A stretch of DNA of 64,000 bases from Pseudomonas sp. R76 (GTDB taxonomy: Bacteria > Pseudomonadota > Gammaproteobacteria > Pseudomonadales > Pseudomonadaceae): NCBI RefSeq assembly GCF_009834565.1, contig NZ_CP019428.1:3534001-3598000 (forward strand). Direction: 5' to 3'. The position numbers and the translations under genes were made by a program. Positions within the stretch are counted from its first letter, which is position 1, and every line of letters starts with the position of its first letter. Positions 7,577-64,000 of the stretch are shown here, one piece after another. Under the pieces are notes generated by a model. That model was not told the DNA's origin and made no database searches. It saw nothing but the letters and a program-made list of their open reading frames with translations.

Positions 7577-7665
7577 TGTGGGAGCGGGCTTGCTCGCGAA
7601 TGCGTTGGGTCAGTCAGCTCATTTGTCACTGTCCCACTGCATTCGCGAGCAAGCCCGCTCCCACA
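7577..7665. repeat. REP doublet (REPIN) with inverted Pseudomonas REP copies
   Basis: Two inverted copies of the Pseudomonas REP core (TGTGGGAGCGGGCTTGCTCG, 7577 onward, and its reverse complement ending at 7665) flank about 35 unrelated bases. Each copy is itself a GC-rich hairpin. Such doublets are non-autonomous elements mobilised by RAYT transposases; no RAYT gene is in this window. It lies between two convergent genes, where it may also stop transcription. Confidence 0.9.
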
Positions 7666-7710
7666 TTTGGATCTCATTACATCAGGTCGCTGTTGTGGTG
7701 CTTCGCCACT

Positions 7711-8403: not shown

Positions 8404-8528
8404 GGTTTCACCCTCCCAGGGCGCAATAATGGCGTTCAACAACCATAGCCCGCTGCCGTGGGAACACCATGACCGCCGGGCGGGCACGCTTTATCATGGC
8501 GACATCGCGCCATTGAGAGAGAAACCAC

Positions 8529-9056
8529 GTGAACCGCATCGAACACATCGCGTTGATGGCCAACTACAACCAGTGGATGAACCGCAAGGTCTATGCCGCC
8601 GCCGGCAAACTGACAGACGCCGAACTGGCGGCGGACCGCCAGGCGTTCTTCGGCTCGATTCTCGGCACACTCAATCACCTGGCGCTCGGTGATACCGTCT
8701 GGCTCAAGCGCTTTGCCCAGCACCCGGCAGGCTTTTCGGCGCTGGCACCCTTAAGCGCTATCGTCACACCCGTAGACCTCAAGCAACTGGCGTTTGCCGA
8801 CATCCGCGAGCTGTCGGCCCATCGCGCTTGCCTGGATCAACTCATCATCGACTGGGCCCAGAGCCTGCGCGAGCCCGACCTGGATCATCACCTCAGCTAC
8901 CAGAACATGCGCGGTGTCGCGAACAACAAGCCGTTCTTCGGCCTGCTGGTGCATTTCTTCAACCACCAGACCCACCACCGGGGCCAGGCAACCACGTTGC
9001 TGACCCAGGCGGGCGTGGATGTGGGCGATACCGACCTGCTGGCGCTGATCGACTGA
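8529..9056 (+). CDS. DinB-family (DUF664-like) protein
   Basis: A 175-residue four-helix protein starting at GTG 8529 with NRIEHIALMANYNQWMNRKVY. The metal-binding histidines typical of DinB/YfiT folds are visible: H52 in GTLNHLALGD, and HFFNHQTHHRGQ near residues 143-154. Family members use mycothiol, bacillithiol or glutathione, or act on DNA-damage metabolites; the substrate here is unknown. It is divergent from the DUF533 gene and convergent with the next gene, with only two bases between the stops. Confidence 0.85.
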   Translation: MNRIEHIALMANYNQWMNRKVYAAAGKLTDAELAADRQAFFGSILGTLNHLALGDTVWLKRFAQHPAGFSALAPLSAIVTPVDLKQLAFADIRELSAHRACLDQLIIDWAQSLREPDLDHHLSYQNMRGVANNKPFFGLLVHFFNHQTHHRGQATTLLTQAGVDVGDTDLLALID

Positions 9057-9058
9057 GT

Positions 9059-9520
9059 TCAGCGCGCGTTGAACGCGGCGTAGGCCTGCATCAAGCGCGG
9101 GAAGTCTTGCGGCTCGGGTAATTGCGCGAAACGTTCGACGGCGGGCGTGGAGGCCCACGGCAGCTTTTCGCTGGTCCAGGTTTCCATGAACGGCACGTAG
9201 TCGTGGGCGTTATCCAGCAAGGTTGCGCGCACATTGACGAACTCGTCGATGCCATGGGGGCGCGTAAACAGCCAGCTCATGCAGTGCGGGCAGCAATAAT
9301 GACGGTCCACGCCATGCAAACCGCCAATCACCGGGCAGCCCTGGGTGACGGTGAAGCCACTGGCGGGAATCAGGACGCTGAGGGAGAACGCGCTGGAGGT
9401 CATTTTCTGGCAGCCGTTGCAATGGCACGCCATGGTGATCACCGGCGGCAGGCTGACACTGAAGCGCACCCGGTTACAGCGGCAACTGCCTTCCAGCGGC
9501 AGGGTTTCGAGGCTCATCAT
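9059..9520 (-). CDS. GFA-family (glutathione-dependent formaldehyde-activating-like) zinc protein
   Basis: A 153-residue zinc-binding protein. The GFA cysteine pattern is clear: GSCRCNRV, then [10 protein letters not shown], then the YCCPHCMSW pair. Known GFA proteins bind zinc through these cysteines and may form S-hydroxymethylglutathione, though most members are unassigned. Two adjacent ATG codons (9520 and 9517) follow AAGGA; either could be used. The gene is intact and single. Confidence 0.85.
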
Positions 9521-9699
9521 TGATTCCTTTTTTATGCTTGTAGTCGCACAGGGTAGCGTGAACCCGCGTGGGGGCAAAACCGAACGCTGCGCCGCGCCTG
9601 GGGTCTTAACCATAAGGCGCCGGGGTTAATTGCCCCGCCCTGCTCGCGCGCCACCGCTGCTGTTGGAGGCGCGTACCCCCATAAGAAGGAGACGCTTAC

Positions 9700-9981
9700 A
9701 TGGTCACTCACTTCAAGGTCGCCGGCCATTTGGCCTGCGGCCACCACGGCACCAACCTCACCTCCAGCACCGAGCTGAACCGAGTCAAATGCCGTACCTG
9801 CCGCAATACCGAAGCCTATAAAGAAGCGCGCCGCACCCAGCGCAATGCCGCTCGCCGCTCTGCGCGCAAAACCAAGACCCACACCGCCATCGACTGGCGC
9901 AGTGCGTGGACACAACGCCTCACCGACCTGCCTGGGTTGCAGCGTTTGCCACGCGGGTTCAGCGGGCAGGCGTTTGTCTGA
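9700..9981 (+). CDS. Small basic hypothetical protein with CxxC-like motif
   Basis: A 93-residue, strongly basic protein preceded by AAGGAG at 9685-9690. Residues about 10-35 contain CGHHGT and VKCRTCRN, resembling a small zinc ribbon, followed by an Arg/Lys-rich helix (EARRTQRNAARRSARKTK). Such proteins may bind nucleic acid, but no function can be assigned. Confidence 0.65.
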   Translation: MVTHFKVAGHLACGHHGTNLTSSTELNRVKCRTCRNTEAYKEARRTQRNAARRSARKTKTHTAIDWRSAWTQRLTDLPGLQRLPRGFSGQAFV

Positions 9982-9982
9982 G

Positions 9983-10160
9983 CTATTCGGCTTTTGAAAA
10001 GATATTCACCAGGTTCTCATCGGGATCCTGGAGCAGCGCGGACGTATTACCCCACGGCATCTTCGTCGCGGGCATCACCACGTTCGTGCTGCTGACCCGG
10101 CTCGCAACAGCCGCCACCTCCAACACTTGAAACGCCAGGACGGACAGAGGCAAATTTCAT
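9983..10160 (-). pseudogene. Internally deleted VOC/glyoxalase-family gene
   Basis: On the minus strand ATG 10160 begins MKFASVR, a common start for small VOC proteins. A few codons later a different frame reads NVVMPATKMPWGNTSALLQDPDENLVNIFSKAE and stops at 9983, which is the C-terminal strand and metal-ligand end of the same family. About half to two thirds of a normal 120-residue VOC protein is missing between them, with a frame change. This is a decayed remnant. The stretch 10161-10335 upstream contains nothing I can support. Confidence 0.7.
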
Positions 10161-10335
10161 AACGGCGCCTGGCTTGAAAGTGAAACCGCACTCTATTTCA
10201 AACCGGGTCAGTTCCTGGCAGGAGCGTTTCACCCCGTATCAAAAACCTCGCCACGGCGGCAGGTTCCCCATGTAGATCACTGATCCTGCAAGATTTTTCG
10301 GATTTTAATGAATGCGACAAACTCATGCTTTCACC

Positions 10336-10364
10336 TTGCATCCAAGCGCCTGGGTCTATATATT
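10336..10364 (+). promoter_or_regulatory. Sigma70 promoter of tRNA-Leu
   Basis: TTGCAT (10336-10341) and TATATT (10359-10364) are separated by 17 bases. Transcription would begin near 10371, about 20 bases before the mature tRNA end, as expected for a single-gene tRNA transcript. Confidence 0.6.
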
Positions 10365-10389
10365 CCCAACCCTGCTGCACCGCGCTGCC

Positions 10390-10476
10390 GCCCGAATGGC
10401 GAAACTGGTAGACGCATGGGACTTAAAATCCCCCGCTCGTAAGGGCGTGCCGGTTCGATTCCGGCTTCGGGCACCA
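10390..10476 (+). tRNA. tRNA-Leu (anticodon UAA)
   Basis: An 87-base class II tRNA with encoded CCA. The acceptor stem is GCCCGAA / TTCGGGC, the anticodon stem-loop is GGGA-CTTAAAA-TCCC with anticodon TAA, the long variable arm is CGCTCGTAAGGGCG, and the T-loop is GGTTCGATTCC. A terminator follows immediately. Confidence 0.97.
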
Positions 10477-10484
10477 TAGATATC

Positions 10485-10526
10485 AAGGGCTTGCATGATT
10501 AACGTCATGCAGGCCCTTATCTTTTT
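10485..10526 (+). terminator. Intrinsic terminator after tRNA-Leu
   Basis: The stem AAGGGC-T-TGCATGA pairs with TCATGC-AGGCCCTT around a short loop and is followed by ATCTTTTT. It lies eight bases past the tRNA CCA end and is bounded by the tail of the convergent LysR gene. Confidence 0.85.
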
Positions 10527-10591
10527 GCGCGCCGCAATTCTCCATTTGCCCGGTTGTTCCGGCGCTCGCCAAGCGATAGCACATCCCCGGA

Positions 10592-11503
10592 TCATTCAAA
10601 CGCGCCGAGTCGCGCCACCAACGCCTCAAGCACCACGCGTAGCTTGGGCAACGCCTGGCGACTTTTAACCCAGGCCAAGGTGATCTCAAACCCTTCAGTC
10701 GCCAGGTGCGGCAGCACTTCCACCAATGTCCCTTGTTGCAGTTGCTGCTCGATCAGCCACGAGGGCAATTGGACGATTCCGCAGTCTGCCAGCGCGGCCA
10801 TCACCAACCCTTCACCATTGCCCACCACCAGCTGCGGCGCGACTGGCCTGCGCAGCGCCTCGCCCTGCTCACCGGTGTAGCGCCAGGGGCTGATGCGCCC
10901 ATCAACCCAGCCATAGGCAATGCACTGATGCTGTTCAAGGTCGCCCTCCGACAACGGCGTGCCATGGCGAGCCAGGTATGCTGGCGATGTGCAAAACACA
11001 TGCCGCTCGCGCCTGAGCAGCCTGTGCCCAACCGTCTCCGGCCAGGCATCCGCACGGCCGATACGCACCACGATGTCAACGCCAGCCTGGAACGGCTCGA
11101 TGAGGCCGTCAGAGAACGTGATGTGCGGTATCACCAATGGATAGTCCTTCATCCATGCCAGCAGGATCGGCAATACCTGCGCGCGTCCGAATGCGCCCGG
11201 CAAATCAATGCGCACTCGCCCACGGGGCTCAGTGCTTTCGCTGTGCAGTGACAACTCGGCTTCTTCAAGGTCGGCCAACACCCCGCTGCAGGTGCGCAGG
11301 AACGCCGTGCCCGCGTCGGTCAGCGCCAATCTGCGCGTCGTACGTTGAAACAGTCGCGCGCCCAGGCGTTTTTCCAGCCTGGCGATGCTTTTACTGATGG
11401 CAGAGGCCGTCAGGTGCATCTTCTCGGCCGCCGCCGCGAAGCTGCCGCTCTCCGCGACGCAAACAAACACATCGATACCCTTCAAGCGTTCGGAGGCAAA
11501 CAT
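10592..11503 (-). CDS. LysR-family transcriptional regulator
   Basis: A 303-residue regulator with an N-terminal winged helix (residues 5-65, AAAEKMHLTASAISKSIARLEKRLGARLFQRTTRRLALT) and a periplasmic-binding-like sensor domain. It resembles the large CrgA/DhcR-like group of LysR proteins. It is transcribed away from an MFS transporter across about 118 bases, so regulation of that transporter is likely. The ligand is unknown. Confidence 0.88.
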   Translation of the reverse strand: MFASERLKGIDVFVCVAESGSFAAAAEKMHLTASAISKSIARLEKRLGARLFQRTTRRLALTDAGTAFLRTCSGVLADLEEAELSLHSESTEPRGRVRIDLPGAFGRAQVLPILLAWMKDYPLVIPHITFSDGLIEPFQAGVDIVVRIGRADAWPETVGHRLLRRERHVFCTSPAYLARHGTPLSEGDLEQHQCIAYGWVDGRISPWRYTGEQGEALRRPVAPQLVVGNGEGLVMAALADCGIVQLPSWLIEQQLQQGTLVEVLPHLATEGFEITLAWVKSRQALPKLRVVLEALVARLGAFE

Positions 11504-11621
11504 TGACGCTCCTTATTCATGAACTCAGTTCCTTTCATTCGATAGAAAGCATCCTAAATCAGAATTCACCTCACCAGTAAGCTGTGTGACTTGCACCTTA
11601 TGAATGGACGATGAGGCCCGA

Positions 11622-12827
11622 ATGCTCGCCACGCTGAAAACCTATCCCGCCACCCTTAACCTGCTGCTGTCTGCGTCACTGGTATTAACCCTCGCGCGCG
11701 CAATCACCCTGCCCTATTTGGTGATTTACTTGTCCGGCAACTTTGGCTTGAGCATTGCCGATATCGGCCTAGTGATCGGAAGCACGCTGATCATCGGCTC
11801 GCTGTTGAGCCTGTATGGCGGCTTTCTGGTCGACCGAATCTCCAGTTACCGGCTGATCCTCACCTGCTGCGGTGTGTTCTCGCTGGGGTTTCTCGGCGCG
11901 TATGGCGCCGCCACGCTGTGGCTGTTCTACCTGTGCCTGGTGTCGATCAACCTGGCGTATGCGGTCATCGATATCACCGTGAAGGCCGGGTTTGGCAGCC
12001 TGCTGCCTGTGGACCAGCGCAGCGAAGTGTTTTCGATCAAATACACGCTGACCAATATCGGCTATGCCGTCGGCCCGTTTCTCGGCGCAGGCGTGGCCGC
12101 CCTCGACATCAGCCTGCCGTTTTTGCTCTCGGCGGGGCTGGGTGCCGGGTTCTTTTTTGTCTACTTCGTGTGGGGCAACAGGGGCCTGGCGGCTGGCGAC
12201 ACACAGGATAAACCCGCGCCATTCCTCGCCGTCGGCACACTGCTGCTGCGCGATTACCGCCTGGTGTGCTTTACCCTCGGCGGGGTCTTGAGTGCGGTGG
12301 TATTCGGCCAATTCACGGCTTACCTCTCGCAGTACCTGATTGTGACCACCACGCCCCACGCGGCCTATCGAATTATCAGCAGCGTGGTGGCGACCAATGC
12401 CCTGATGGTGATCAGCCTGCAATACAGCATTGGCAAACGCATTTCCCGTCGACACCTGAACCTGTGGCTGGCCGGCGGGCTCAGCCTGTTTATCGTCGGG
12501 CTCGGCGGCTTCGCCCTGTCGACCACGTTGATGGTCTGGATGGTGTCCATGGCGATTTTTACCCTGGGCGAAATCATCGTCTTCCCGGCCGAATACATGT
12601 TCATCGACAACATTGCACCGAGTCATCTGAGAGGGATGTATTACGCGGCGCAGAACTTGAGCAATGTCGGCGCTGCGTTAGGTCCGGTGCTGTGTGGAAT
12701 CGTGCTGGCGACGCAGCCGGCTCACTACATTTTCTACATGTTGGGGCTGTTTATCATCGCCGGTGGGTTGTTTTACGGGTTGGGGGTTGCCCTTTCAGGT
12801 CAACGCCATCCTGAAGAACTGAAATAA
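11622..12827 (+). CDS. Major facilitator superfamily transporter (YdeE/MdtH-like)
   Basis: An inner-membrane permease of 401 residues with about 12 hydrophobic helices. The motif-A-like loop GGFLVDRISSYRLIL follows helix 2, and LLPVDQRSEVFSIKYTLTNIGYAVGP is typical of drug/sugar-efflux MFS members of the YdeE/MdtH type. ATG 11622 is placed after GATGAGG; an in-frame ATG at 11604 is possible. It is divergent from a LysR regulator. The substrate is unknown. Confidence 0.8.
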   Translation: MLATLKTYPATLNLLLSASLVLTLARAITLPYLVIYLSGNFGLSIADIGLVIGSTLIIGSLLSLYGGFLVDRISSYRLILTCCGVFSLGFLGAYGAATLWLFYLCLVSINLAYAVIDITVKAGFGSLLPVDQRSEVFSIKYTLTNIGYAVGPFLGAGVAALDISLPFLLSAGLGAGFFFVYFVWGNRGLAAGDTQDKPAPFLAVGTLLLRDYRLVCFTLGGVLSAVVFGQFTAYLSQYLIVTTTPHAAYRIISSVVATNALMVISLQYSIGKRISRRHLNLWLAGGLSLFIVGLGGFALSTTLMVWMVSMAIFTLGEIIVFPAEYMFIDNIAPSHLRGMYYAAQNLSNVGAALGPVLCGIVLATQPAHYIFYMLGLFIIAGGLFYGLGVALSGQRHPEELK

Positions 12828-12839
12828 GCCCATAAGTGA

Positions 12840-13110
12840 GCGCCTGGACTGCTCGCCAAAGCGCCCGAGAAACCCTGTACCGCCGCACTCGCTGGCCATG
12901 AATTGGCAGTCAGTGAGGCGACGTTGCGCCGTCGACTGGCGGATGAAGGGGTCAATTTCAGCACGTTGCTGACTGAGATCCGCATGCACCACGCGATGAT
13001 GCTGTTGCAGACCACGCACCTGGGGGGCGCAGATTGCGGATGTGTGCGGGTATCGGGCGTTGTTGCGGTTTTCCAAACGGGAGCAGAATAGCGCGAATCC
13101 TCACGCATAA
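12840..13110 (+). pseudogene. C-terminal remnant of an AraC-family regulator
   Basis: From 12840 the reading frame gives GHELAVSEATLRRRLADEG and then FSTLLTEIRMHHAMMLLQTT, which is the first half of an AraC-type DNA-binding domain. Near 13025, at a run of G, the second half continues in another frame (QIADVCGYRALLRFSKRE), ending at 13108-13110. The sensing domain and the start are missing. It is thus truncated and frameshifted. The following 178 bases (13111-13288) hold nothing I can support. Confidence 0.7.
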
Positions 13111-13288
13111 TCCGCAACACCTCAGACCCGTTCAAGAGGATCTCCGCCATGTGGTTCTGCGGCACTGACTTACCACGTTCGCTGCGTAAATGCCTCCATT
13201 GACTGACGACTGCAAGAGTAAAAAATAAAAACACGTTTTACTCTCATCATCTGAAACTATAAAGCTCTGAATTTGATTATCCAGTGCC

Positions 13289-13669
13289 TCATATATCTTG
13301 CTCCGGCAAAAAGCGCTTGCGTAAGAATCTTTTACAACCTTCTGGCGCCACACTTATCAGCACTTCCGCACTACAGCCCTGTAGCAACCCATGATCAACT
13401 ATTGACTCTATAAAATAATACATACATTCAACATTCCGACCCAAAGCCACCTCGCTGCCTTTCACAACTTCAAGTAAATCATCAGGCGTCACTTCCTGCA
13501 CAACAACAGCGCCTAATGACTCGTATGCCGAAATGTAGTACCCATTGCGTATAACTCCTGACACGCCACCCAGGTCACCTAATGCATCTTCTAGTTTCGT
13601 CCTTGAGATTGAAAATTGCGATGCGAGCCACAGAAGACTTTTTTTAAAGTACTCATCGTCCGAGAGCAT
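13289..13669 (-). CDS. Candidate immunity protein of the displaced toxin tip
   Basis: A 126-residue acidic protein (MLSDDEYFKKSLLWLASQFS start) of low GC compared with the flanks and without a family I recognise. Its ATG overlaps the end of the preceding toxin-tip fragment by a few codons, the usual spacing for a toxin/immunity pair in CDI loci. If the toxin fragment is dead, this gene could still protect against neighbours that deliver the same toxin. The assignment rests on position and size, not on homology. Confidence 0.6.
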   Translation of the reverse strand: MLSDDEYFKKSLLWLASQFSISRTKLEDALGDLGGVSGVIRNGYYISAYESLGAVVVQEVTPDDLLEVVKGSEVALGRNVECMYYFIESIVDHGLLQGCSAEVLISVAPEGCKRFLRKRFLPEQDI

Positions 13670-54331: not shown

Positions 54332-55069
54332 ATGTGGGACGGCAGCGTTACCTTTGGTGATTCATGGGCGGGCTACATTGGCCGCGCGGATCAAAATACT
54401 GCCCACTCCCATGTCGCCATTCAGCTGTGCATCGGCGTGCACCAACCCGTGAAGCTGGAATTGCCCGGCCAGCTGATCCGCGCGGCCGGGGTGATCATCG
54501 GTCCCAACGTCGAGCACCGCGCGGTGGCCGACATTCACCCGGTGGCCTTTGTCTACATCAACCCCGACACGCCACTGGGCCGCGACCTCAAAGCCTTGCT
54601 TCATCACAATGGCATCGCCCTGGCCAGTGAGGAAATGCTTGAGTGTTTCCGCCGCACCACCTCCCTGGCGCAGTTTGTCGAGGCGCTCGCGCGGTTGCTG
54701 GCAATTACGCCGCCTATCGATCAGCGCCTGTACAAGGCCTTGAACCTCCTGCGCCAGGACCGCGACGGTCCTGGTTCCGTCAGCCGCGCCGCCAACGCGG
54801 TCGGCCTGTCGAGCCCGCGCTTGCGCTGCGTGGCCACGCACCAGATGGGCGTTTCGCTGTCGCAATGGATCATCTGGAACAAACTCGAGCGCGCCTCCAA
54901 GTCCCTGGCGGCTGGCGCCAGCTTGTCGGACGCCGCTGCCGATGGCGGCTTCTCCGACCAGGCCCACCTGGCGCGCATGATGCGCATGATGCGCCGCATG
55001 TTTGGCATGACGCCCCGCACCGCTGCCAAGGTTTTGCGCAAGACAAGCGTTTCGTTCAAGACGCAGTGA
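54332..55069 (+). CDS. AraC-family regulator heading the downstream cluster
   Basis: A 245-residue regulator. The N-terminal part is a cupin-like sensor (WAGYIGRADQNTAHSHVAIQ) and the C-terminal part a diverged AraC helix-turn-helix domain (VSRAANAVGLSSPRLRCVAT, then GGFSDQAHLARMMRMMRRMFGMTP). ATG 54332 follows CAGGAAG. It is on the same strand as, and 180 bases before, the ten-gene set that follows, so it is the likely specific regulator. Its ligand is unknown and it is not a PchR paralogue by eye. Confidence 0.8.
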   Translation: MWDGSVTFGDSWAGYIGRADQNTAHSHVAIQLCIGVHQPVKLELPGQLIRAAGVIIGPNVEHRAVADIHPVAFVYINPDTPLGRDLKALLHHNGIALASEEMLECFRRTTSLAQFVEALARLLAITPPIDQRLYKALNLLRQDRDGPGSVSRAANAVGLSSPRLRCVATHQMGVSLSQWIIWNKLERASKSLAAGASLSDAAADGGFSDQAHLARMMRMMRRMFGMTPRTAAKVLRKTSVSFKTQ

Positions 55070-55249
55070 TGTCAAAACGCCAATATCGATCGAATCTTAT
55101 TCGCTGAAACGTTAAGCGCTGATTGCCTCCCCCACAGCACTTCAACGCCACCGCACGTGAATACAGAGTGTTCGCCAGGGGCATCCGTGCCTGGGATTTG
55201 GCGAAACGCAACGTTAATTCTTTCGATGAGTCCGCAGGAAGCGTCCTAC

Positions 55250-56314
55250 ATGTCAGAACCGCAAAAATTAACCGTCCTTCTCACGGGAGGATCAGGTGTG
55301 CTCGGTGAGTCCCTGATCGAGTGCCTGGCGCAGGACTTTCACCTGGTCTGCCTGGCGCGTAAAAGTCGCATTCGCCACCCGCAGGTCGAAGTCCTCAAAG
55401 GCGATATCTGCCGCCCTCGGCTAGGCTTGGACGCCGCCGATTATGAAGCGCTGCTCAAGCGCGTCGACTGGGTGATTCACGCTGCGGCCGTCACCCGTAT
55501 GGATGGCGATGTCGATCAGATTTTCTCGGTGAATTACCTCGGCACCGAGAACGTCGTGAGCTTTGTCCAGCAGGCCAAAGTGCCGCTTTACCACGTCAGC
55601 ACCGCCTTCACTCACCCCTGCGACTACTACGAAGGCGTGCAGGCACAAATCCCGTACGAAGTGGCCAAGCGCCAGGCCGAAACCCTGGTGCGCTCGGCCG
55701 GGATCGACGTGTCGATCTTTCGCCCCTCGATCATCATTGGCGATTCGGGCAGCGGGCATATGCCCAACTTCCAGGGTTTTCACATGACCATGGGCCTGAT
55801 GATGTCCGGCGTGCTGCCGATCGTGCCCTGCCCGCCTGCCGGCTATATCGACCTGATCGCTCGCGACGTCGCCGCACGGGCGATTGCCAATGCCTTGCGC
55901 CAGCGTTTGATCGGCAAGGACTACTTCCTCACCAGCGGCCCGCAGGCCCTGGACCTGACCGGCTTGCTGGACCTGATGTGCCACTCCATGGAAGCCCAGG
56001 GCAAAGCGTTCACGCGGCCACGCTGCATGGCGCCGGATATTTATGAACGCCTGATCCGCCCGGTGTTTCTGCCGGCGCTGACCGGCAATATCCAGGCCGC
56101 CCTGGGCCGCGCCAATCAACTGTGCCGCTATGCGTGCCTACGCACACCGCTGCCTACCTCGTTGCCCGAGTTGCTCGGCGAAGCGGCGTTCAACGCACGG
56201 GATGTCAGCCGCGAATTGCTGCTGTCACTCAATCACCTGGCGCCCAAGCTGGGGGCCCTGACGCGGATGCTCAAACAGCCGGCGCCGCCCTTCGCTGAGG
56301 CCTCCGTGGCATGA
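55250..56314 (+). CDS. NAD(P)-dependent acyl-thioester reductase-like protein (NAD_binding_4)
   Basis: A 354-residue Rossmann protein. The nucleotide loop is LLTGGSGVLGESL near residue 10, followed by GDICRPRLGLDAADYEALL, VSTAF and the catalytic-type Y-x3-K in YEVAKRQAETL with FRPSIIIGDSGSG. These are marks of the male-sterility/thioester-reductase branch, which reduces carrier- or CoA-bound acyl groups to aldehydes. It lacks any adenylation or carrier domain, so it must act on a substrate supplied in trans. ATG 55250 follows GCAGGAAG; longer in-frame starts lack a ribosome site. It overlaps the aminotransferase gene by four bases. Confidence 0.75.
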   Translation: MSEPQKLTVLLTGGSGVLGESLIECLAQDFHLVCLARKSRIRHPQVEVLKGDICRPRLGLDAADYEALLKRVDWVIHAAAVTRMDGDVDQIFSVNYLGTENVVSFVQQAKVPLYHVSTAFTHPCDYYEGVQAQIPYEVAKRQAETLVRSAGIDVSIFRPSIIIGDSGSGHMPNFQGFHMTMGLMMSGVLPIVPCPPAGYIDLIARDVAARAIANALRQRLIGKDYFLTSGPQALDLTGLLDLMCHSMEAQGKAFTRPRCMAPDIYERLIRPVFLPALTGNIQAALGRANQLCRYACLRTPLPTSLPELLGEAAFNARDVSRELLLSLNHLAPKLGALTRMLKQPAPPFAEASVA

Positions 56315-57570
56315 ACCCGCTACTTATCGAACCCGCAAGCGACGCCGAACAGATTGACCAGTATTTCCGCCAGCATGTGAATTCGGGCTACGCCCGCCTG
56401 GCCTCGCTGATGAACCTGCCCATCGAGCAGTCCAGCCAGGGCGTCTACATCTATGACAACAGAGGGCGCCAGTACCTGGATGCCGGCGGCTATGGGGTGT
56501 TCTTCCTCGGCCACGGCCACCCGGTCGTGGTGGAAGCCGTGACCCGGCAGCTGCAGCAGAACGCACTGGCCAGCAAATTGTTGCTCAACCCGCAACAGGC
56601 CTTGGCCGCTCAGGCCCTGGCCGCCCGCTGCCCCGGCAACCTGGACTATGTGTTCTTTTGCAACTCGGGCGCCGAAGCCACTGAAGCCGGGTTGAAACTG
56701 GCGCGCCTTAACGGCTGCCGTCGCACGCTGTCGACGCTTGGCGGTTTCCACGGCAAGACCCTCGGCGCCTTGGCCGTGACCGGCCGCGAAAGCTACCGCG
56801 AGCCGTTCAGTGGCCTGCTCAGTGAAAGCGCGTTCGTGCCCTTCGGCGACAGTGATGCGTTGGAACAGCAACTGCTGGCGTCGCCGGAAAAAGCCTGCGT
56901 GATTCTCGAGCCGATCCAGGCCGAAGCCGGCGTGATCCTGCCACCGCACGGTTATCTGACGCGTGTCCGCGAGCTGTGCGACCAATACGGCGCGCTGCTG
57001 ATCATCGATGAAATTCAGTCCGGCCTGGGCCGCACCGGCCATTGGTGGGCCTGCGACCAAGAGCAGGTGGTGCCCGACATCATGCTGGTGGGCAAAAGCC
57101 TGTCCGGTGGCTGCGTACCGGTGAGTGCCATGGTTGCCAGCGCCACGGTCTATGCGCCGTTCAACCGCAACCCCACGGTGCACACCTCGACCTTTGGCGC
57201 CAACCCGCTGGCCATGGCGGCGGTGCAGGCCACGTTGCAAGTGATGGTGCAGGAAGACCTGGTGCAGCGCGCCCGGCTGATGGGCCAGGACCTGCATGCG
57301 CGTTTCAGCGCGTTGCTGCAACAGATGGGCCTGGCCGAGTGCGTGAAGCTGCGCAGCGCGGGCTTGCTGCTGGGCTTCGAGTTCAGCGACGCCTCGATTG
57401 CCGCAAACATGGTCATGGCGCTGATCGAGCAGCAAATCATCGTTTGCCACTCGCTCAATGATCACCGGGTCGTGCGGCTGACGCCGTCGCCGCTGCTGAA
57501 CGCCCAGGACTGCAACTGGTTGATCGAGGGGTTCGCCCAGGCGCTCACCACTTCAGTTTCCACCCTTTGA
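56311..57570 (+). CDS. Class III PLP-dependent aminotransferase
   Basis: A 419-residue fold-type I transaminase. Marks: SGAEATEAGLKLAR (cofactor phosphate site), GGFHGKTLGALAVTG, DEIQSGLGRTG and the Schiff-base lysine in LVGKSLSGG, then HTSTFGANPLAMAA. Enzymes of this type aminate aldehydes or keto groups, so this one could convert the aldehyde made by the preceding reductase to a primary amine. The ATGA overlap with the reductase supports a coupled step. Confidence 0.88.
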   Translation: MNPLLIEPASDAEQIDQYFRQHVNSGYARLASLMNLPIEQSSQGVYIYDNRGRQYLDAGGYGVFFLGHGHPVVVEAVTRQLQQNALASKLLLNPQQALAAQALAARCPGNLDYVFFCNSGAEATEAGLKLARLNGCRRTLSTLGGFHGKTLGALAVTGRESYREPFSGLLSESAFVPFGDSDALEQQLLASPEKACVILEPIQAEAGVILPPHGYLTRVRELCDQYGALLIIDEIQSGLGRTGHWWACDQEQVVPDIMLVGKSLSGGCVPVSAMVASATVYAPFNRNPTVHTSTFGANPLAMAAVQATLQVMVQEDLVQRARLMGQDLHARFSALLQQMGLAECVKLRSAGLLLGFEFSDASIAANMVMALIEQQIIVCHSLNDHRVVRLTPSPLLNAQDCNWLIEGFAQALTTSVSTL

Positions 57571-57586
57571 TTTTTGGAGTTACCCC

Positions 57587-58036
57587 ATGCAGGAAGTCAA
57601 TATCCAGGCGCACATTCCACACGCCTGCGCTGATGAAGTCTTTGCCGTGATCAGCGACTTCAGCCACTACGTCGAGCTGTGCGAGTCGGTGCGCAATATC
57701 ACCATCAATAAGGTCAGCGACCAGGTGTCGTTCACCTCCTGGGAAGTCAACTTCCACAGCGGCATTCTCAAGTGGCAAGAGCGCGATACGTTCAACGCCG
57801 AGACCCGAGAGATCCACTTCGAACAACTGGCCGGCGATGTCGACCATTTCTCGGGCACCTGGCAAGTGCTGCCGGACGGCAAGGACGCGATCATCACCTT
57901 CAAGTCACGCTTTGACCTGGGCCTGCCGATGCTCGCCGACATGCTCGACCCCGTGGCCAAGACCGCCATTCGCGACAACATTAACTCGATCATCACCGGA
58001 TTGTTTCCCACAAGCTATGTGAGGCCCCAGCCATGA
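57587..58036 (+). CDS. SRPBCC (polyketide cyclase/COQ10-like) protein
   Basis: A 149-residue START-like helix-grip protein (VNIQAHIPHACADEVFAVIS, then FEQLAGDVDHFSGTWQV and a C-terminal long helix). Such proteins bind hydrophobic ligands; cluster members act as cyclases or chaperone an intermediate. Small SRPBCC proteins also occur with haem-oxygenase-like enzymes in Pseudomonas signalling-molecule operons of the mgo/pvf type, but no NRPS is present here. It is 16 bases after the aminotransferase and overlaps the next gene by four. Confidence 0.75.
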   Translation: MQEVNIQAHIPHACADEVFAVISDFSHYVELCESVRNITINKVSDQVSFTSWEVNFHSGILKWQERDTFNAETREIHFEQLAGDVDHFSGTWQVLPDGKDAIITFKSRFDLGLPMLADMLDPVAKTAIRDNINSIITGLFPTSYVRPQP

Positions 58037-59175
58037 CCCTGTCTCTGTTGAACCGCTCACGCGCGGTGCTGCACAACTACGCCCCAGGTTTTGACGCGCG
58101 CCTGGCGGACATTGCCTTTGCCGAACGTGAAGCATCGCACAGCGACGTCGTCGCCCTGTTCAAGCAACACGGCCCGGTCGGGCTGTTGGTCAACCGCGCC
58201 GGCGGCGGCCTGGGCGCGGGCATCCTCGATGCGGTGCATGTGCAGATCGCCCTGGGCGCGCGCTCGCCGTCGCTGGCCGTGGCCAGCACCATGCACCAAT
58301 TCTCCGTCGCCAGCCTGTTGGCGCTGACCCAAAACGGCGGCGGCGCCGAAGGCCTGTTGCTGGCCGCCGTGGCGCAGAACCGCTTGTTGCTGTCCTCGGG
58401 CTTTGCCGAGGGCAACACGGGCGCCGGCATCCTCGACTCGAACATGCAGGCAGTACAGACCCCGGAAGGCGTGCTGCTCAGCGGCAGCAAAAAGCCTTGC
58501 TGCCTCGGCCAGTCGATGGACTTGCTCACCGCCAGCTACACCCGCGAGGGCGTGGACGGCGAAGAGTTGATGGTGGCGCTGATTCCCGCGAACGCGCCGG
58601 GCATCAGCCGGGCACCGTTCTGGCAAAACAGCGCGCTGGCCGCCGCCGAAAGCATCGAAGTGCGCCTCAACGAAGTGTTCGTGCCGGAGCGCATGGTGTT
58701 TTCCGCCGGTTACAAGCACCTGCTGGGCGATGTGCAAACCGTGGGTTTCATCTGGTTCGAGCTGTTGATTTGCGCATCTTACGTGGGTACCTGTGCCGGT
58801 CTGATCGAAACCGTGACCGACGCCGCGCGCTGGACTGCCCATCACCGCGTCGACCTGGCCGCCCACCTGCAATTGGCGATCACCGCCCTGGAAGGCGCGG
58901 CGCTGGATGTGGAACGCAACCCGCACGACCTGCACACCGTGCTCGCCCGCCTGTTGCTGGTGCGTTATGGCATCGAACAACTGCTCAACCAGCTGTCGGA
59001 CGAAGCCCACGCGATGCTCGGGGGCATGGCGTTTATTACCAGCAACCAGAGTTCGAATTGGTTGATGGCCTGCCGTGGCCTGCAATTTCACCCGCCGGCG
59101 AAGATCTCGATGGCGACCAACCTCGACTGCTACTTGTCCCAATCCACCTTCAGCATCGCCGGAGTGAAACCATGA
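58033..59175 (+). CDS. Acyl-CoA-dehydrogenase-like flavoprotein
   Basis: A 380-residue protein with ACAD-superfamily layout: a helical N-terminal part (LAVASTMHQFSVASLLAL), a flavin beta domain (LLLSSGFAEGNTGAG, GVLLSGSKKPCCLGQSMDLL) and a C-terminal helical bundle (HAMLGGMAFITSNQSSNWLM). Members oxidise acyl thioesters to enoyl forms or act as flavin monooxygenases. In tambjamine biosynthesis an ACAD introduces the double bond of the alkenyl-amine; a similar role here is inference. The usual catalytic glutamate could not be located with certainty. Confidence 0.7.
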   Translation: MTLSLLNRSRAVLHNYAPGFDARLADIAFAEREASHSDVVALFKQHGPVGLLVNRAGGGLGAGILDAVHVQIALGARSPSLAVASTMHQFSVASLLALTQNGGGAEGLLLAAVAQNRLLLSSGFAEGNTGAGILDSNMQAVQTPEGVLLSGSKKPCCLGQSMDLLTASYTREGVDGEELMVALIPANAPGISRAPFWQNSALAAAESIEVRLNEVFVPERMVFSAGYKHLLGDVQTVGFIWFELLICASYVGTCAGLIETVTDAARWTAHHRVDLAAHLQLAITALEGAALDVERNPHDLHTVLARLLLVRYGIEQLLNQLSDEAHAMLGGMAFITSNQSSNWLMACRGLQFHPPAKISMATNLDCYLSQSTFSIAGVKP

Positions 59176-59999
59176 ACCTGCTCGGAAAAACCATTGTCAT
59201 CAGCGGCTGTGCACGTGGCCTGGGCCATGCCGCCGCGCACAAGCTCAAGGGGCAAGGCGCCACGGTGATCGGCCTGGACATCCTGGAACCGCAGGAACTG
59301 GGGCTGCTCGACGGGTTTTATCAAGTCGACCTGTGTGACCGCAGGGCGTTGGCCCAGGTGATCACTGCCATCAGCACTGACTTCGGTGACATCGACATTC
59401 TGGTCAATAACGCCGGCACCCTGACCCTGGAGCGTGGCGAAACCGGCGTGACGGACGAAGTCACCCGCGCGGTGGACGTAAACCTGTTCGCGCCGTGGCA
59501 ACTGGTCGCCGGCTTCTTGCCGGGGCTGCTGCGCAAACGCGGCAAAGTGGTGAATGTGTCGTCGCTGTTCGCCCTGGTCAATGCGCCGTATGTGGCCGCG
59601 TATGCCGCCAGCAAACGCGCGCTGAGTGCGTATTCCGACGTGCTGCGCATGCAGTATCGCGGGCAGCTCGATGTGGTCACGGTGTATCCGGGGTTCATCG
59701 ACACCGCGATCCATTTGCCCGCCCAGCGCGTGGGCCTGTCGGTCAAGCGCCTGGTGACCTTCATGTGGGGCGACAAGACCTTGCTGTCCCTGGAAGAAAA
59801 GCTCGATGCCGCCGCCGACGGCCTGGTGCGCGCCTGCCGCAAAGACGGCCTGCGCAACCGTGGCCTGACGTTCATGGGCACCCTGGCCATGTACACCGCG
59901 CGCATTGCGCCGAGTGTGGTCGACGCCTTTATCGCCTTGCGCCTGCGCACGCTGACACGCGGTGGGCACCTGGCGCTCAAACCTGAACTGATCGAGTAA
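59172..59999 (+). CDS. Short-chain dehydrogenase/reductase
   Basis: A 275-residue classical SDR: the cofactor loop is SGCARGLGHAAA (residues 11-22), then NNAG, the serine in NVSSLFALV and the Y-x3-K in YAASKRAL, with PGFIDT after it. It starts at ATG 59172 in an ATGA overlap with the previous gene. It most likely reduces or oxidises a hydroxyl or keto group of the pathway intermediate; specificity cannot be inferred. Confidence 0.85.
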   Translation: MNLLGKTIVISGCARGLGHAAAHKLKGQGATVIGLDILEPQELGLLDGFYQVDLCDRRALAQVITAISTDFGDIDILVNNAGTLTLERGETGVTDEVTRAVDVNLFAPWQLVAGFLPGLLRKRGKVVNVSSLFALVNAPYVAAYAASKRALSAYSDVLRMQYRGQLDVVTVYPGFIDTAIHLPAQRVGLSVKRLVTFMWGDKTLLSLEEKLDAAADGLVRACRKDGLRNRGLTFMGTLAMYTARIAPSVVDAFIALRLRTLTRGGHLALKPELIE

Positions 60000-60009
60000 C
60001 GCGCAACCA

Positions 60010-60963
60010 ATGGCCAGACAACTGCACGCCAAGCCCCAGGTTCGCCTCGACCGCGCGTTGTTCAAAGCGCACACGGGCGAGTCCTTGTTGATCATCGGTT
60101 ACGCCCTGTGCCTCTACCTGCTGCCACTCGCGCTGTTTGTGTGGGTGGCGAACACGACGTCCAGCCTGTGGGTGGTGCTGCTGTGCGCGCCACTCTGGGT
60201 GATGGCCGGATACGGAATGTTTCTGCAAGCGATCCTTGGGCATGAAGGCTTTCACTTCAACCTGAGCCGTAACCCGATGCACAGCTGTTACCTGGGCATC
60301 TTCACCAGTTCGATGCTGCCGGGGTTCTGCGTGACCGGTTACTTCGTCGACCACTGGCAGCACCACCGCTTCAGCAACAGCGCAAACGACCCGGATTACC
60401 GGCATTTCTCGCGCTATCGCACCTTGCTGAGCCGCATCGCGCTGTCACGTTTGCTCGCCACCTCGAACTACCTGCAAGCCACCTTGCGCCTGGCATTCGG
60501 CCCGCTGATCAGCCCCTCGCCGCTGCCCTTGAGCGCGGCGCAGGTTCAACACTTGGCGCGCTGCAATATCGCCTGCCAGCTGGGTTGGCTCGGTGTGTAC
60601 GCGCTGGCCTTGTGGCAGGTCGACGGGTTGCTGCTGGGGTTTGGCCTGAGCCTGACGGTGGCGTTTCTGGTGTCGGCCTTTAATGCCTACCAGGAACATG
60701 CCTTCAGCGCAGACGATGAACAGCCGCCCGCGCGTTCGCGCACATCGCGCCTGTGCACCTTCATGCATGCCGGCGCTAACTTTCACCTGGAGCATCACTT
60801 TTACCCTGCCGTGCCGTGCTGGCGCCTGCCCAAGGTGCACCGGCAACTGCTCGACGCCGGCTGGTACGCCGACCGGCAGCACCTGCTGGAAAAAAACTTC
60901 GTTGCGTCCTTCAAATACGCCACCCGCCGCCACCCTTACCGTGGAGACACGGTGAACGACTGA
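60010..60963 (+). CDS. Membrane fatty-acid desaturase-like diiron enzyme
   Basis: A 317-residue integral membrane protein with the three histidine boxes of the desaturase family: HEGFH, HWQHHRFSN and FHLEHHFYP. Four or more hydrophobic helices surround them. It would introduce a double bond or hydroxyl in an alkyl chain, using a diiron centre at the inner membrane. It lies 10 bases after the SDR gene. Confidence 0.85.
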   Translation: MARQLHAKPQVRLDRALFKAHTGESLLIIGYALCLYLLPLALFVWVANTTSSLWVVLLCAPLWVMAGYGMFLQAILGHEGFHFNLSRNPMHSCYLGIFTSSMLPGFCVTGYFVDHWQHHRFSNSANDPDYRHFSRYRTLLSRIALSRLLATSNYLQATLRLAFGPLISPSPLPLSAAQVQHLARCNIACQLGWLGVYALALWQVDGLLLGFGLSLTVAFLVSAFNAYQEHAFSADDEQPPARSRTSRLCTFMHAGANFHLEHHFYPAVPCWRLPKVHRQLLDAGWYADRQHLLEKNFVASFKYATRRHPYRGDTVND

Positions 60964-61024
60964 ACACACACCCTAAATTTCCCAATGGATTGACCGCCTG
61001 AACCCTCAGGCTGCAGGAGCATGT

Positions 61025-61831
61025 ATGCCGTTTGAAATTGATAGCCACATTGAAGCCGAACGCGCGCAGTTATTCGGCCACCCGCTGTTTGCCAACATCC
61101 GCACTGTTGAAGACGTGCGCACCTTGATGGAATTCCACGTGTTCGCCGTGTGGGATTTCATGACCTTGCTCAAGCGCATCCAGCGCGACCTCACCTGCGT
61201 CGAGCTGCCGTGGGTGCCGCCGGTGCACATCACCGCTGCGCGCTTGATCAATGAAATCGTGGTGGGTGAAGAAACCGACGAACACCCGGGCGGCGGGTTT
61301 ATCAGCCACCTGGACCTGTACCTCACCGCCATGGATGAAATCGGCGCCGACAGCTCGGTATTCCGCCGCTTCCTCGCCGCGATCCAGGCCAAGGTGCCGC
61401 TGGCCAAGGCGCTCAACGACCGCGACATTCCTTTGGCGGCCAAAGTGTTCATGTGCCAGACCCTCGATGTCGCCCAACACGGCTCTACCGAAGCGGTGCT
61501 GGCGTACTTCTTTTTTGGCCGCGAAGACATCATTCCCGACATGTTCGGGCGCCTGCTCTCGCAGTGGTCGGTGAGTGAGACCGAAGTGCCGATGCTCACC
61601 TATTACCTCAAGCGCCACATTGAAATGGACGGCGACGAGCATGGCCCGGCCGCCAAACGCATCATCGGCGAAATCGTCACCACGCCCGAGCAACACCAAC
61701 ACATGATCGACAGCGCCAAGACCGCGATCAACTCCCGCATCGACCTGTGGGACGGCGTGCACCATTTCCTCCAGGAGAAAGCCCAACACACCACGGAGCG
61801 CCCTGTGCGCCGGGTTGCACACAGTTTCTGA
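61025..61831 (+). CDS. DUF3050 protein, haem-oxygenase-like fold (possible diiron oxidase)
   Basis: A 268-residue protein of the DUF3050 type (MEFHVFAVWDFMTLLKRIQR, VPPVHITAARLINEIVVGEE). Residues placed as in haem-oxygenase-like diiron oxidases are visible: E77 or E82/E83, H95, E167, and an H198-x3-D202-x3-H206 pattern in HIEMDGDEHG. Studied members of that fold perform desaturation, decarboxylation to alkenes, or N-oxygenation. The chemistry here is open. A GCAGGAGC ribosome site precedes the ATG, 61 bases after the desaturase. Confidence 0.7.
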   Translation: MPFEIDSHIEAERAQLFGHPLFANIRTVEDVRTLMEFHVFAVWDFMTLLKRIQRDLTCVELPWVPPVHITAARLINEIVVGEETDEHPGGGFISHLDLYLTAMDEIGADSSVFRRFLAAIQAKVPLAKALNDRDIPLAAKVFMCQTLDVAQHGSTEAVLAYFFFGREDIIPDMFGRLLSQWSVSETEVPMLTYYLKRHIEMDGDEHGPAAKRIIGEIVTTPEQHQHMIDSAKTAINSRIDLWDGVHHFLQEKAQHTTERPVRRVAHSF

Positions 61832-61858
61832 GCCGCGCATGAACACAGGGAGCAAGAC

Positions 61859-62926
61859 ATGACCAAAGGCAAGCTAATCAAACTCACACTGTGCACTGTC
61901 GTGGTCGGGGGTTTGCTGCTGCTCGGCTGGCAGCGCTGGCAGTATTCCAGCGCGTACGTCAGCACCGACAACGCGGAGCTGGATGGGGTGATTATTCCGG
62001 TGCGGGCCAAGCTGTCAGGCGTGGTGATGAGCGTGCCGGTGATGGACAACGTCACCGTGGAAAGCGGCGACTTGCTGTTTCAGATACGCGACAGCGAATA
62101 CCAATACCAGGTGCAGCAGCGCGAAGCACAATGGCAAGCCCTGCTCGCCGCCGCCGGGCGCAGCGGCAGCCCGGGGGCGCTGGACAGCCAGATCCTCGGC
62201 GCGGTCGCCATACGCCAGGCCGCGCAGGCGGCCCTGGCACAATCAAGCGCCAACCTTGAGCAGGCGCGCAATGACTACCAACGCGCCCGTCGCCTCGGCG
62301 CCCAAGGTGTGTTGAGCACCCAGGACCTGGAACTGGCCAAGGCACGTTTCGACGCGCTGAGCCATGCCCAGGAAGCCGCGCGCAGTAACGCCCAGGCGGC
62401 GGCGCAAAGCACCTTGGCCAACAAGGCCGAACTCAAGGTGCAGGACTACCGCATCGCGGCGGCGCAAGCCGAGTTGGAGCAGGCTCGGATCAAGCTGCAC
62501 GACGCCCGCCAGACCGCGCCGGTGCGCAGCATCGTGTCGAAAAAAGAGGTGGAGCCCGGCCAGTTCGTGGTCGCCGGCCAGAAGCTCTTGAGCCTGATCG
62601 CCACCGAGCCGCTGTGGATTACCGCCAACTTCAAGGAAACCCAAGTCGGCCGGGTTCGCGTCGGCCAGCACGCCAAGGTTACCGTGGACGCGTTCCCCGG
62701 CCAGGCCTTAGACGGCGTGGTCGAAAGCCTGGCACCGGCCACCGGGGCGAAGTTCTCGTTGCTGCCGCAGGAAAACGCCACGGGCAACTTCACCAAGGTG
62801 GTGCAACGCGTCCAGGTGCGGATCGCCCTCACCGACGTGCCGGCTGACTACAAGCCCTTGTTGAGCCCCGGCATGAGCGCCTTCGTCGAAGTCGCCACGC
62901 CACGCAACGGCAGCCAGACGTTATGA
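61859..62926 (+). CDS. EmrA/HlyD-family membrane-fusion protein
   Basis: A 355-residue periplasmic adaptor anchored by one N-terminal helix (LIKLTLCTVVVGGLLLLGW). It has the biotinyl-lipoyl-like motifs (STDNAELDGVIIPVRAKLSG and TAPVRSIVSKKEVEPGQFVV) around a coiled-coil hairpin (about residues 95-205) rich in Ala, Gln and Glu. With the following MFS gene it forms an EmrAB-type efflux pair that would send the cluster product out through an outer-membrane channel encoded elsewhere. Confidence 0.9.
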   Translation: MTKGKLIKLTLCTVVVGGLLLLGWQRWQYSSAYVSTDNAELDGVIIPVRAKLSGVVMSVPVMDNVTVESGDLLFQIRDSEYQYQVQQREAQWQALLAAAGRSGSPGALDSQILGAVAIRQAAQAALAQSSANLEQARNDYQRARRLGAQGVLSTQDLELAKARFDALSHAQEAARSNAQAAAQSTLANKAELKVQDYRIAAAQAELEQARIKLHDARQTAPVRSIVSKKEVEPGQFVVAGQKLLSLIATEPLWITANFKETQVGRVRVGQHAKVTVDAFPGQALDGVVESLAPATGAKFSLLPQENATGNFTKVVQRVQVRIALTDVPADYKPLLSPGMSAFVEVATPRNGSQTL

Positions 62927-64000
62927 GGTCGCCGTACCTGATTGCGTTCACGGTGACGCTGGTGTCGATGATGGAGTTGCTCGACGTGACCATCGTCAAC
63001 GTCGCCATTCCCAGCCTGATGGGCACCTATGGGGCGTCGGTGGATGAGATCTCGTGGGTCTCCACCGGTTACGTGGTGGCCAACGTGGTGATCCTGCCGG
63101 TCAGCGGCTGGTTGTCTGCCTGGTTTGGGCGGCGCCGCTACTACCTGGTCTCCACCGCCGTGTTTGTGCTGGCGTCGGTGGGCTGCGCGTTTTCCGCCGA
63201 GCTGTGGCAACTGGTGGCCTTCCGCGTGCTGCAAGGCCTGGCGGGCGGCGGGTTGCTGGGGATCTCCCAGGCGATCATCTACGACGTGTTCCCCAAGGAA
63301 AAGGTCAGCAGCGGCATGGCGCTGTACGGCGTCGGCGTGATGATGGGGCCGACCTTGGGGCCGACTGTCGGTGGCTACCTGATCGACACCTTGTCATGGC
63401 ATTGGATCTTTTTGATCAACGTGCCCATCGGTGCCGTGGCGCTGTTGCTGTGCTGGTTGTGCATCGGCGATTCGGTCAATGAGCAAAAACCCAGCAGCGT
63501 CGACTACAGCGGCTTCTGCCTGTTGGCCCTGGGGGTTGGCAGCCTGCAGATCCTGCTGGAGCGCGGCGAGCACTGGGACTGGATGGAATCCAACTGGACG
63601 GTGGCCTGCCTGTTGCTCAGCAGCTTCAGCCTGGTGGGGTTTTTCTGGTGGGAACGGCGTGCCGCCAACCCAATCGTCAACGTTGCGCTGTTTCACAACC
63701 GCGAGTTCCTGATGGGCTGCATCTGCGCGTTTTGTGTGGGTTTCGGGCTGTACAGCACCTTATTCATGGTGCCGCTGTTCTTGCAGACGTTGTTGGCGCA
63801 AAGCGCCTACCAGAGCGGGCTGGTGATTTTCCCCGGCGCGGTGGCCAGCGCCATCAGCACCTTGGTGATCGGCAAGCTGTCCCAGGAAAACAAGATCGAC
63901 GAGCGCGTGTTCGTGACCTTGGGCATCGTCATGTACTGCTACGCGATGTTCCTGCACACCCAGTTCACCCTCGACAGCAACCCGGACACGCTGTACTGGC
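62923..64000 (+). CDS. EmrB/QacA-type DHA2 MFS exporter (cut by window end)
   Basis: It opens at ATG 62923 in an ATGA overlap with the adaptor gene and runs open to the window edge (359 codons seen of about 500). Marks of 14-helix DHA2 exporters are present: LLDVTIVNVAIPSLMG in helix 1, the motif-A loop GWLSAWFGRRRYYL, and motif C GVGVMMGPTLGPTVGGYL. It is the inner-membrane half of the tripartite pump. No defect is visible in the part seen. Confidence 0.9.
   Translation, partial: MRSPYLIAFTVTLVSMMELLDVTIVNVAIPSLMGTYGASVDEISWVSTGYVVANVVILPVSGWLSAWFGRRRYYLVSTAVFVLASVGCAFSAELWQLVAFRVLQGLAGGGLLGISQAIIYDVFPKEKVSSGMALYGVGVMMGPTLGPTVGGYLIDTLSWHWIFLINVPIGAVALLLCWLCIGDSVNEQKPSSVDYSGFCLLALGVGSLQILLERGEHWDWMESNWTVACLLLSSFSLVGFFWWERRAANPIVNVALFHNREFLMGCICAFCVGFGLYSTLFMVPLFLQTLLAQSAYQSGLVIFPGAVASAISTLVIGKLSQENKIDERVFVTLGIVMYCYAMFLHTQFTLDSNPDTLYW

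Follow-up and report, generated by a model that had tools for sequence, protein, structure and literature searches.

A gene cluster of Pseudomonas sp. R76 orthologous to cluster 17 of P. donghuensis P482 encodes a HamA-type protein and may make an N-oxidised alkylamine

The window, a stretch of 64,000 nucleotides of the 6.83-Mb genome of Pseudomonas sp. R76 (G000:C1:3534001-3598000), ends in a gene cluster that was shown by gene content, gene order and gene lengths in strain HYS to be the orthologue of "cluster 17" of Pseudomonas donghuensis P482. The genes lay in order on the forward strand, all but the sixth clearly placed in families by Pfam and NCBIfam scans, with an AraC-family regulator first (54332-55069; HTH_18; open reading frame (ORF) open from 54263). 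This gene was followed by a short thioester reductase-like NAD(P) enzyme (TR; 55250-56314; NAD_binding_4, 1e-35), whose ORF was open from 55157 and for which the ATG at 55250 was preferred based on its relatives, and by a class III pyridoxal phosphate aminotransferase similar to putrescine aminotransferase and PigE (AT; 56311-57570; PF00202, 2e-88). An SRPBCC (Polyketide_cyc) protein (57587-58036; PF03364, 54 bits) preceded a flavoprotein of the acyl-CoA dehydrogenase (ACAD) fold (58033-59175), which profile, structure and single-sequence searches pointed to as either an acyl-thioester dehydrogenase or an amine N-oxygenase. The next genes encoded a short-chain dehydrogenase/reductase (SDR) orthologous to BV82_4240 of P482 (59172-59999; PF00106, 1e-33), a membrane protein of the fatty-acid desaturase/hydroxylase family (FA_desaturase; 60010-60963; PF00487, 2e-29) with three histidine boxes invariant across 17 aligned rows, and a DUF3050 protein (61025-61831; PF11251, 1.5e-80). 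The export genes consisted of an EmrA-type periplasmic adaptor orthologous to BV82_4243 (61859-62926; TIGR00998, 211 bits, below the cut-off of 391), an EmrB-type MFS exporter that ran past the window end at 64000 (62923-64440; TIGR00711, 338 bits for the in-window part of the protein, above the cut-off), and a TolC outer-membrane channel of the operon just beyond the window (64462-65805; TIGR01844, 254 bits, above the cut-off). RND-type ORFs came after TolC in the extended sequence.

All the genes named in the original prediction were present, in the order given there and on the forward strand. It had counted ten genes after the AraC gene; nine of these lie inside the window, and the tenth, tolC, lies just past its end. 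The genes had been described as mostly overlapping; overlaps were seen at four of the eight junctions among the nine in-window genes, and the other four junctions had gaps of 10-61 bp. As predicted, no nonribosomal peptide synthetase (NRPS), polyketide synthase (PKS) or carrier protein, nor a ligase, was detected among the ten proteins scanned, and the ORFs left no room for such a gene between AraC and TolC. Extension past 64000, suggested in the prediction as a check for a ligase or an outer-membrane channel, revealed the channel and, as far as TolC, no ligase.

The cluster had also been called apparently undescribed, which is not the case, as the same ten genes are in print with knock-out phenotypes (PMC8154892). 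Cluster 17 of P482 (BV82_4236-4245) was annotated there with a member of the NAD-dependent epimerase family, a patA-like aminotransferase, an SRPBCC protein and a "putative isobutylamine N-hydroxylase" first, and with SDR, desaturase, DUF3050, emrA, emrB and tolC as the remaining genes, the same order as that of TR to tolC here. The AraC gene of the window had no counterpart among these ten published genes, and species and gene neighbourhood differed as well. The length comparison was made with P. donghuensis HYS rather than with the letters of P482 itself: all ten HYS gene lengths (1056, 1272, 444, 1146, 828, 993, 804, 1065, 1575 and 1350) were equal to the published P482 values (PMC8154892). 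Protein identity between the window and HYS was 53-80% over the ten genes. Table 1 of PMC8154892 gives the desaturase BV82_4241 as 993 bp and 309 aa; 993 bp corresponds to 330 aa, which is the length of the HYS desaturase.

On glycerol minimal medium, the SDR (BV82_4240) mutant of P482 was no longer active against Dickeya solani, and about 90% of its activity against P. syringae was gone; on glucose its activity against D. solani was unchanged (PMC8154892). When emrA (BV82_4243) was knocked out, about 40% of the antibacterial activity remained on glucose and about 30% on glycerol, and on LB both mutants were relatively similar to the wild type, with the emrA mutant tending lower (PMC8154892). 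By analogy with these mutants, the window cluster may have an antibacterial role. The product was called unknown at publication in 2021, with a vague polyketide link proposed, and the region was regarded as non-conserved, with fewer than ten close relatives for several ORFs (PMC8154892). No cluster-17 product was found in the literature on DUF3050, on HamA and diazeniumdiolates or on tambjamines as far as its text was accessible; no search by name was made, and later or subscription papers may exist.

To define the distribution of the cluster, genome contigs were scanned for DUF3050, and the best 80 of 152 relatives were kept. The whole gene set was carried by 15 Pseudomonas records at 65-93% identity, and the remaining 65 of these 80 were without it. 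A search with the ACAD-like protein at 1e-40 across a genus-wide sample of 398 genomes gave matches in 30, of which 14, the own genome included, were orthologues (61-100% identity) and 16 were relatives at 30-37% identity. With the window itself set aside, 13 orthologues remained, and these and the 15 records of the DUF3050 scan made up 28 loci, 19 of them distinct by ACAD DNA. In all 28, the order AraC-TR-AT-SRPBCC-ACAD-SDR-desaturase-DUF3050-EmrA-EmrB-TolC was identical on one strand, with the AraC gene leading, which bore out the conserved synteny that the original prediction had proposed to look for. This 11-gene order is one conserved biosynthetic and export unit, well beyond chance, and the present locus counts show that the cluster is spread wider than the authors of PMC8154892 thought.

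A divergent core of the cluster was found in another gammaproteobacterial family (G785; L174, G785:C12:293001-313000), with tblastn identities of 52.5% for DUF3050, 47% for AT, 43% for SDR, 42% for SRPBCC, 42% for ACAD and 33% for TR, and an AraC gene at 24%. An FA_desaturase was also present, though tblastn with the window desaturase missed it. MMPL and LolA-like proteins, a possible exporter, took the place of EmrAB-TolC beside this core, and an NAD-binding oxidoreductase was added. Besides the own genome, ACAD matches occurred only in G785 and G658 among 369 genomes of the class and, at a stricter cut-off, only in G785, G1150 and G188 among 398 genomes of the phylum. G1150 had the ACAD gene alone, G658 had in addition a distant aminotransferase match at 26%, and in G188 no other core enzyme was matched, just an EmrB-type protein at 32%.

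The flanks of the cluster, those of the window included, fell into 10 upstream and 7 downstream groups. The downstream flank of the window was common to four other loci, whereas the window was the sole member of its upstream-flank group. The pyochelin locus that the prediction had placed next to the cluster was real, in that the upstream neighbours were of the pyochelin type (a salicylate/dihydroxybenzoate-AMP-ligase-like protein, an isochorismate lyase and an isochorismate synthase by NCBIfam, with ORFs of 1784 and 1385 aa also present). Their adjacency was incidental, because the window stood alone in that group. These neighbours, together with the pyoverdine peak that was not detectable in the emrA mutant of P482 (PMC8154892), would fit a metal acquisition operon in which EmrAB-TolC exports pyoverdine and the enzymes modify the siderophore or its fatty part. 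This explanation seemed improbable, since the authors judged the cluster-17 compound to be likely distinct from pyoverdine and 7-HT (PMC8154892), the upstream neighbourhood was confined to the window, and G785 kept the enzymes but swapped the exporter.

The main new result is the link that sequence and structure model suggest between the DUF3050 protein of cluster 17 and HamA chemistry. By sequence, its sole relative in the PDB at E <=10 was 9vwb (E 7e-67), another DUF3050 protein. The entry bears the title "HamA, a Heme-Oxygenase-Like Enzyme", and the name suggests that it is the HamA of fragin biosynthesis. The structure model (pLDDT 91.5) had the heme-oxygenase-like fold of the heme-oxygenase-like diiron oxidases (HDO), and 9vwb was also its first fold match (E 9e-17, TM 0.83/0.90, 40% identity). 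Further fold matches included CADD, UndA and others, with PolF and HrmI lower. Residues H38, E77, E83, H95, E167, H198, D202 and H206 were invariant in 36 chosen DUF3050 rows; H198, D202 and H206 fit the HxxxDxxxH motif of the two-iron site of HDO enzymes, which has His/carboxylate ligands, and they are candidate iron ligands together with E77, E83, H95 and E167. As sequence and model indicate, the window protein is a HamA-type heme-oxygenase-like protein, and it is probably a diiron one.

A tree of 105 motif-bearing, non-identical rows drew, among others, on 33 of the 36 ham-type loci and on 55 of the 65 loci that belonged neither to the cluster nor to the ham type. In it, HamA and L174 grouped with the rows of the cluster, the ham-type rows of Pseudomonas lay beside this group, and the rows of Bacillota, Bacteroidota and Planctomycetes fell apart from these. 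In a tree of 40 chosen rows without L174, with the ham-type rows thinned at random, the cluster, HamA and ham-type rows formed a clade with 99/99 support against nine Bacillota rows; the order inside the clade was left open, and the joint clade alone is claimed. A sister grouping of the window DUF3050 with HamA is not claimed, because in the larger tree HamA joined L174, this pair was sister to the window clade, and both members of the pair were long branches. Around the 65 non-cluster loci (L041-L105), no neighbour family was found at more than 6 loci, so that none was a widely shared partner; L050 was the one informative locus and pointed to the ham-type operon.

PF11251 was found in 125 of 199 Pseudomonas genomes. 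The contexts of the non-cluster Pseudomonas DUF3050 genes were taken from the 30 best-scoring places of that search and six loci with more flank, and AurF adjoined DUF3050 in 36/36 loci fetched, which correspond to at most 34 distinct genomes or records (G212 and G024 were counted twice). One such ham/pvf/mgo-like operon lies in the own genome at C1:179209-184762 (L166:3209-8762), with DUF3050, AurF, an A-T-R NRPS and an SRPBCC protein by Pfam; a second AurF match was located at G000:C1:43644-44387. The window cluster shared with these operons a HamA-type DUF3050, a thioester reductase and an SRPBCC protein. It differed from them by the absence of AurF (HamC) from its proteins in the Pfam scan and by having no A-T-R NRPS-like HamD, so that its reductase stands alone, whereas an ACAD-like protein, an SDR and a desaturase were added. 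AurF acting in trans was rejected as a general explanation: AurF exceeded the cut-off anywhere in the genome in 11 of the 15 genomes bearing the cluster or its core and not in the other four, of which G177, G285 and G785 had no AurF match and G389 had only a sub-threshold one. HamE is a member of the polyketide-cyclase family, and the window SRPBCC protein had been expected to resemble it for that reason. The SRPBCC proteins had different best families (PF03364 in the window, PF10604 in the ham-type operon), and hhalign gave a probability of 6% from 6 and 18 rows; orthology of the window protein to HamE/MgoD is not claimed.

In the fragin route, the diazeniumdiolate was proposed to be assembled by HamA, HamC and HamE while the valine is bound to HamD. 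HamG, like the AT of the window, was proposed as a transaminase, acting on the R-domain aldehyde (Jenul 2018, PMC5878181). Hydroxylamine intermediates form without HamA (PvfA) and HamE, and the diazeniumdiolate-forming enzymes were called elusive (PMC11659414); HamA and/or HamE are listed as putative in PMC11705231, and the accessible text of PMC12186260 adds nothing about HamA function. MgoB also matches DUF3050, and the mgoB mutant still makes mangotoxin in reduced amounts (PMC3298696).

The reductase and the aminotransferase pointed to an alkylamine. TR scored 90 bits against TIGR01746, below the cut-off of 213, and its best solved relative was MxaA (1.7e-12), presumably a carrier-protein reductase domain. 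The glycine-rich TGG.GVLG (Rossmann motif) and PYE..KR (Tyr/Lys) of TR were invariant in 17 rows, as was the lysine motif LVGKSLSGG of AT. AT matched putrescine aminotransferase (388 bits) and PigE (326 bits) in NCBIfam, both below the cut-off, and in the PDB it matched the putrescine aminotransferase 4uox (5e-96). This likeness would suit an operon that degrades or detoxifies fatty amines or aldehydes instead of making a product, a reading that is barely credible for a unit with a dedicated exporter and its own TolC whose P482 orthologue mutants lose antibacterial activity (PMC8154892).

In tambjamine biosynthesis, fatty acids become amines through TamA and TamH, the latter joining reductase and transaminase activities (PMC9594044, PMC5939613). 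Judged by family and motifs, the pair of thioester reductase and class III transaminase is present in the window as in that module. The original prediction had compared the reductase, aminotransferase and ACAD trio with tambjamine clusters; the logic of the first two matches TamH, and the idea of an alkylamine is plausible, whereas the ACAD-like protein as a fatty-acyl desaturase (dehydrogenase) is only possible. The YP1 module (TamA-TamT-TamH) and the window have reductase, aminotransferase and flavin enzyme in common. In the window, however, no gene from AraC to TolC encodes an ANL-ACP fatty-acid activating protein (TamA), each of the two functions of TamH has its own gene, and DUF3050, SRPBCC, SDR and desaturase are extra. 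The proposed azodyrecin route runs from fatty acid to aldehyde, transamination, flavin N-hydroxylation and tRNA-dependent N-N assembly, with a late desaturase (PMC9379638). The azodyrecin and valanimycin (ady, vlm) systems share with the window the proposed acyl-to-aldehyde step, transamination, a desaturase and a candidate flavin N-hydroxylase, but the window has a HamA-type protein in place of VlmA/VlmB; a VlmA-type transferase (PF09924) gave no Pfam match among the ten cluster proteins scanned. VlmB has also been called a heme-like diiron oxygenase (PMC11705231).

The ACAD-like flavoprotein gave no Pfam match at 0.001, a looser cut-off gave weak matches to the N- and M-domains, and weak PigA/RedW matches were seen in NCBIfam. 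In the profile search, DszC was the sole PDB match at 1e-8 or better, and in the structure search with the model, DszC, TdsC, MsuC and nitrososynthase-type entries ranked slightly above dehydrogenases. A proven N-oxygenase is not claimed, because the margin of the monooxygenases was small in both structure and profile and the single-sequence search favoured dehydrogenases. Among the ACAD-like rows, FHP was found in 23/23 and E243 in 7/23. E243 presumably falls where isovaleryl-CoA dehydrogenase has its alternative catalytic glutamate, and from the alignment it could possibly serve as a dehydrogenase base.

Such a base would suit a tambjamine-like pathway, a tentative alternative in which an unsaturated alkylamine, or its imine or amide, would be formed without N-oxidation. 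The ACAD-like protein would then dehydrogenate an acyl thioester in the manner of TamT, and the target of DUF3050 would be carbon, with oxidative C-C cleavage or desaturation, as by UndA, among the conceivable reactions. The TamT/TamH logic (PMC5939613), the E243 shared with L174 and L175, the ligase, acyl carrier protein (ACP), KAS III, LuxI-type and GNAT genes adjoining ACAD relatives, and the presence of UndA and CADD among the DUF3050 fold matches all agree with it, as does the single-sequence PDB search, in which acyl-CoA dehydrogenase and prolyl-PCP dehydrogenase ranked ahead of DszC. It is opposed by the grouping of the DUF3050 protein with HamA itself, beyond mere fold likeness, and by the flavin monooxygenases at the top for the ACAD-like model and profile.

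The best reading, with a probability of roughly 0.5, is that TR and AT make an alkylamine from a fatty-acyl thioester and that the nitrogen of this amine is oxidised by DUF3050, perhaps together with the ACAD-like flavoprotein. An N-oxidised alkylamine was preferred because reducing, aminating and desaturating enzyme classes occur together with a candidate flavin N-oxygenase and a HamA-type protein. We infer the substrates, the order of steps, the N-oxidation and the metal binding of the product as follows. A fatty-acyl thioester drawn from primary metabolism would be reduced to the aldehyde by TR and transaminated to the alkylamine by AT, as their families and catalytic motifs suggest, and the chain may be adjusted by the ACAD-like flavoprotein, the desaturase and the SDR. 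Judging from relatives, DUF3050 would oxidise the amine nitrogen further, possibly after N-hydroxylation by the ACAD-like protein; if HamA acts after hydroxylamine formation, as in pvf, the ACAD-like protein would be the N-hydroxylase. The N-oxidised, probably metal-binding product would be exported by EmrAB-TolC, with which the emrA mutant phenotype agrees.

Several points weigh against N-oxidation, in addition to the single-sequence ranking of the flavoprotein. ACAD relatives have acyl-carrier and autoinducer-synthase genes as neighbours, the cluster itself lacks genes for an acyl ligase or carrier, the window SRPBCC protein had no specific kinship to the ham-type one (hhalign 6%), and DUF3050 occurs in Bacillota and Bacteroidota too, without widely shared partners. 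HamA's own role is itself putative, and the leftover mangotoxin of the mgoB mutant counts against an essential role of DUF3050 there (PMC3298696). Hydroxylamine formation independent of HamA/PvfA means that DUF3050 alone may not start N-oxidation (PMC11659414), and the ACAD-like protein, as a candidate for this role, would therefore have to do so.

The boldest form of the N-oxidation reading, possible but doubtful, is an AurF-free and NRPS-free diazeniumdiolate pathway, in which the HamA-type diiron enzyme would build an N-nitrosohydroxylamine on a fatty-acid-derived alkylamine, the ACAD-like flavoprotein would replace AurF, and the product would be a nitrosoxacin-like, copper-binding antibiotic. 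Nitrosoxacins are long-chain alkyl compounds. They are named among the diazeniumdiolates and are 5-lipoxygenase inhibitors (PMC5878181), which suggests by analogy that such a product class exists in nature. If true, a rare nitrogen-nitrogen bond would be built on a fatty amine before export. Cluster 17 joins two questions, that of its product and that of the enzymes behind the diazeniumdiolate group in fragin and valdiazen (PMC11659414). Since a HamA-type enzyme is kept without AurF or NRPS, a direct test with purified proteins and simple alkylamines or alkylhydroxylamines is possible, and the products to look for are N-oxidised amines that are lipophilic, bind metal and show a loss of NO in mass spectrometry.

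The neighbours of the ACAD relatives surveyed favoured acyl chemistry. At L178 (G001:C3:57001-75000), the ACAD-like gene lay close to genes for an AMP-ligase (FAAL-like), an ACP, an 871-aa protein, a 2Fe-2S reductase and an FA desaturase, and parts of L181 were similar. The 871-aa protein had an N-terminal class III aminotransferase and a C-terminal half without Pfam match, and the set is possibly a second fatty-amine pathway in Pseudomonas. At L176:8576-10568 (G188), the ACAD-like gene directly adjoined an Acetyltransf_5/FeeM-like GNAT gene. At L175 (G658:C30:51001-71000, about 6105-13389), a LuxI-type autoinducer synthase was found near an AMP-ligase-ACP protein, KAS III and the ACAD-like protein, with a possible LuxR-type regulator in the same stretch, and this set possibly serves to provide an unusual acyl chain specifically for a quorum-sensing signal.

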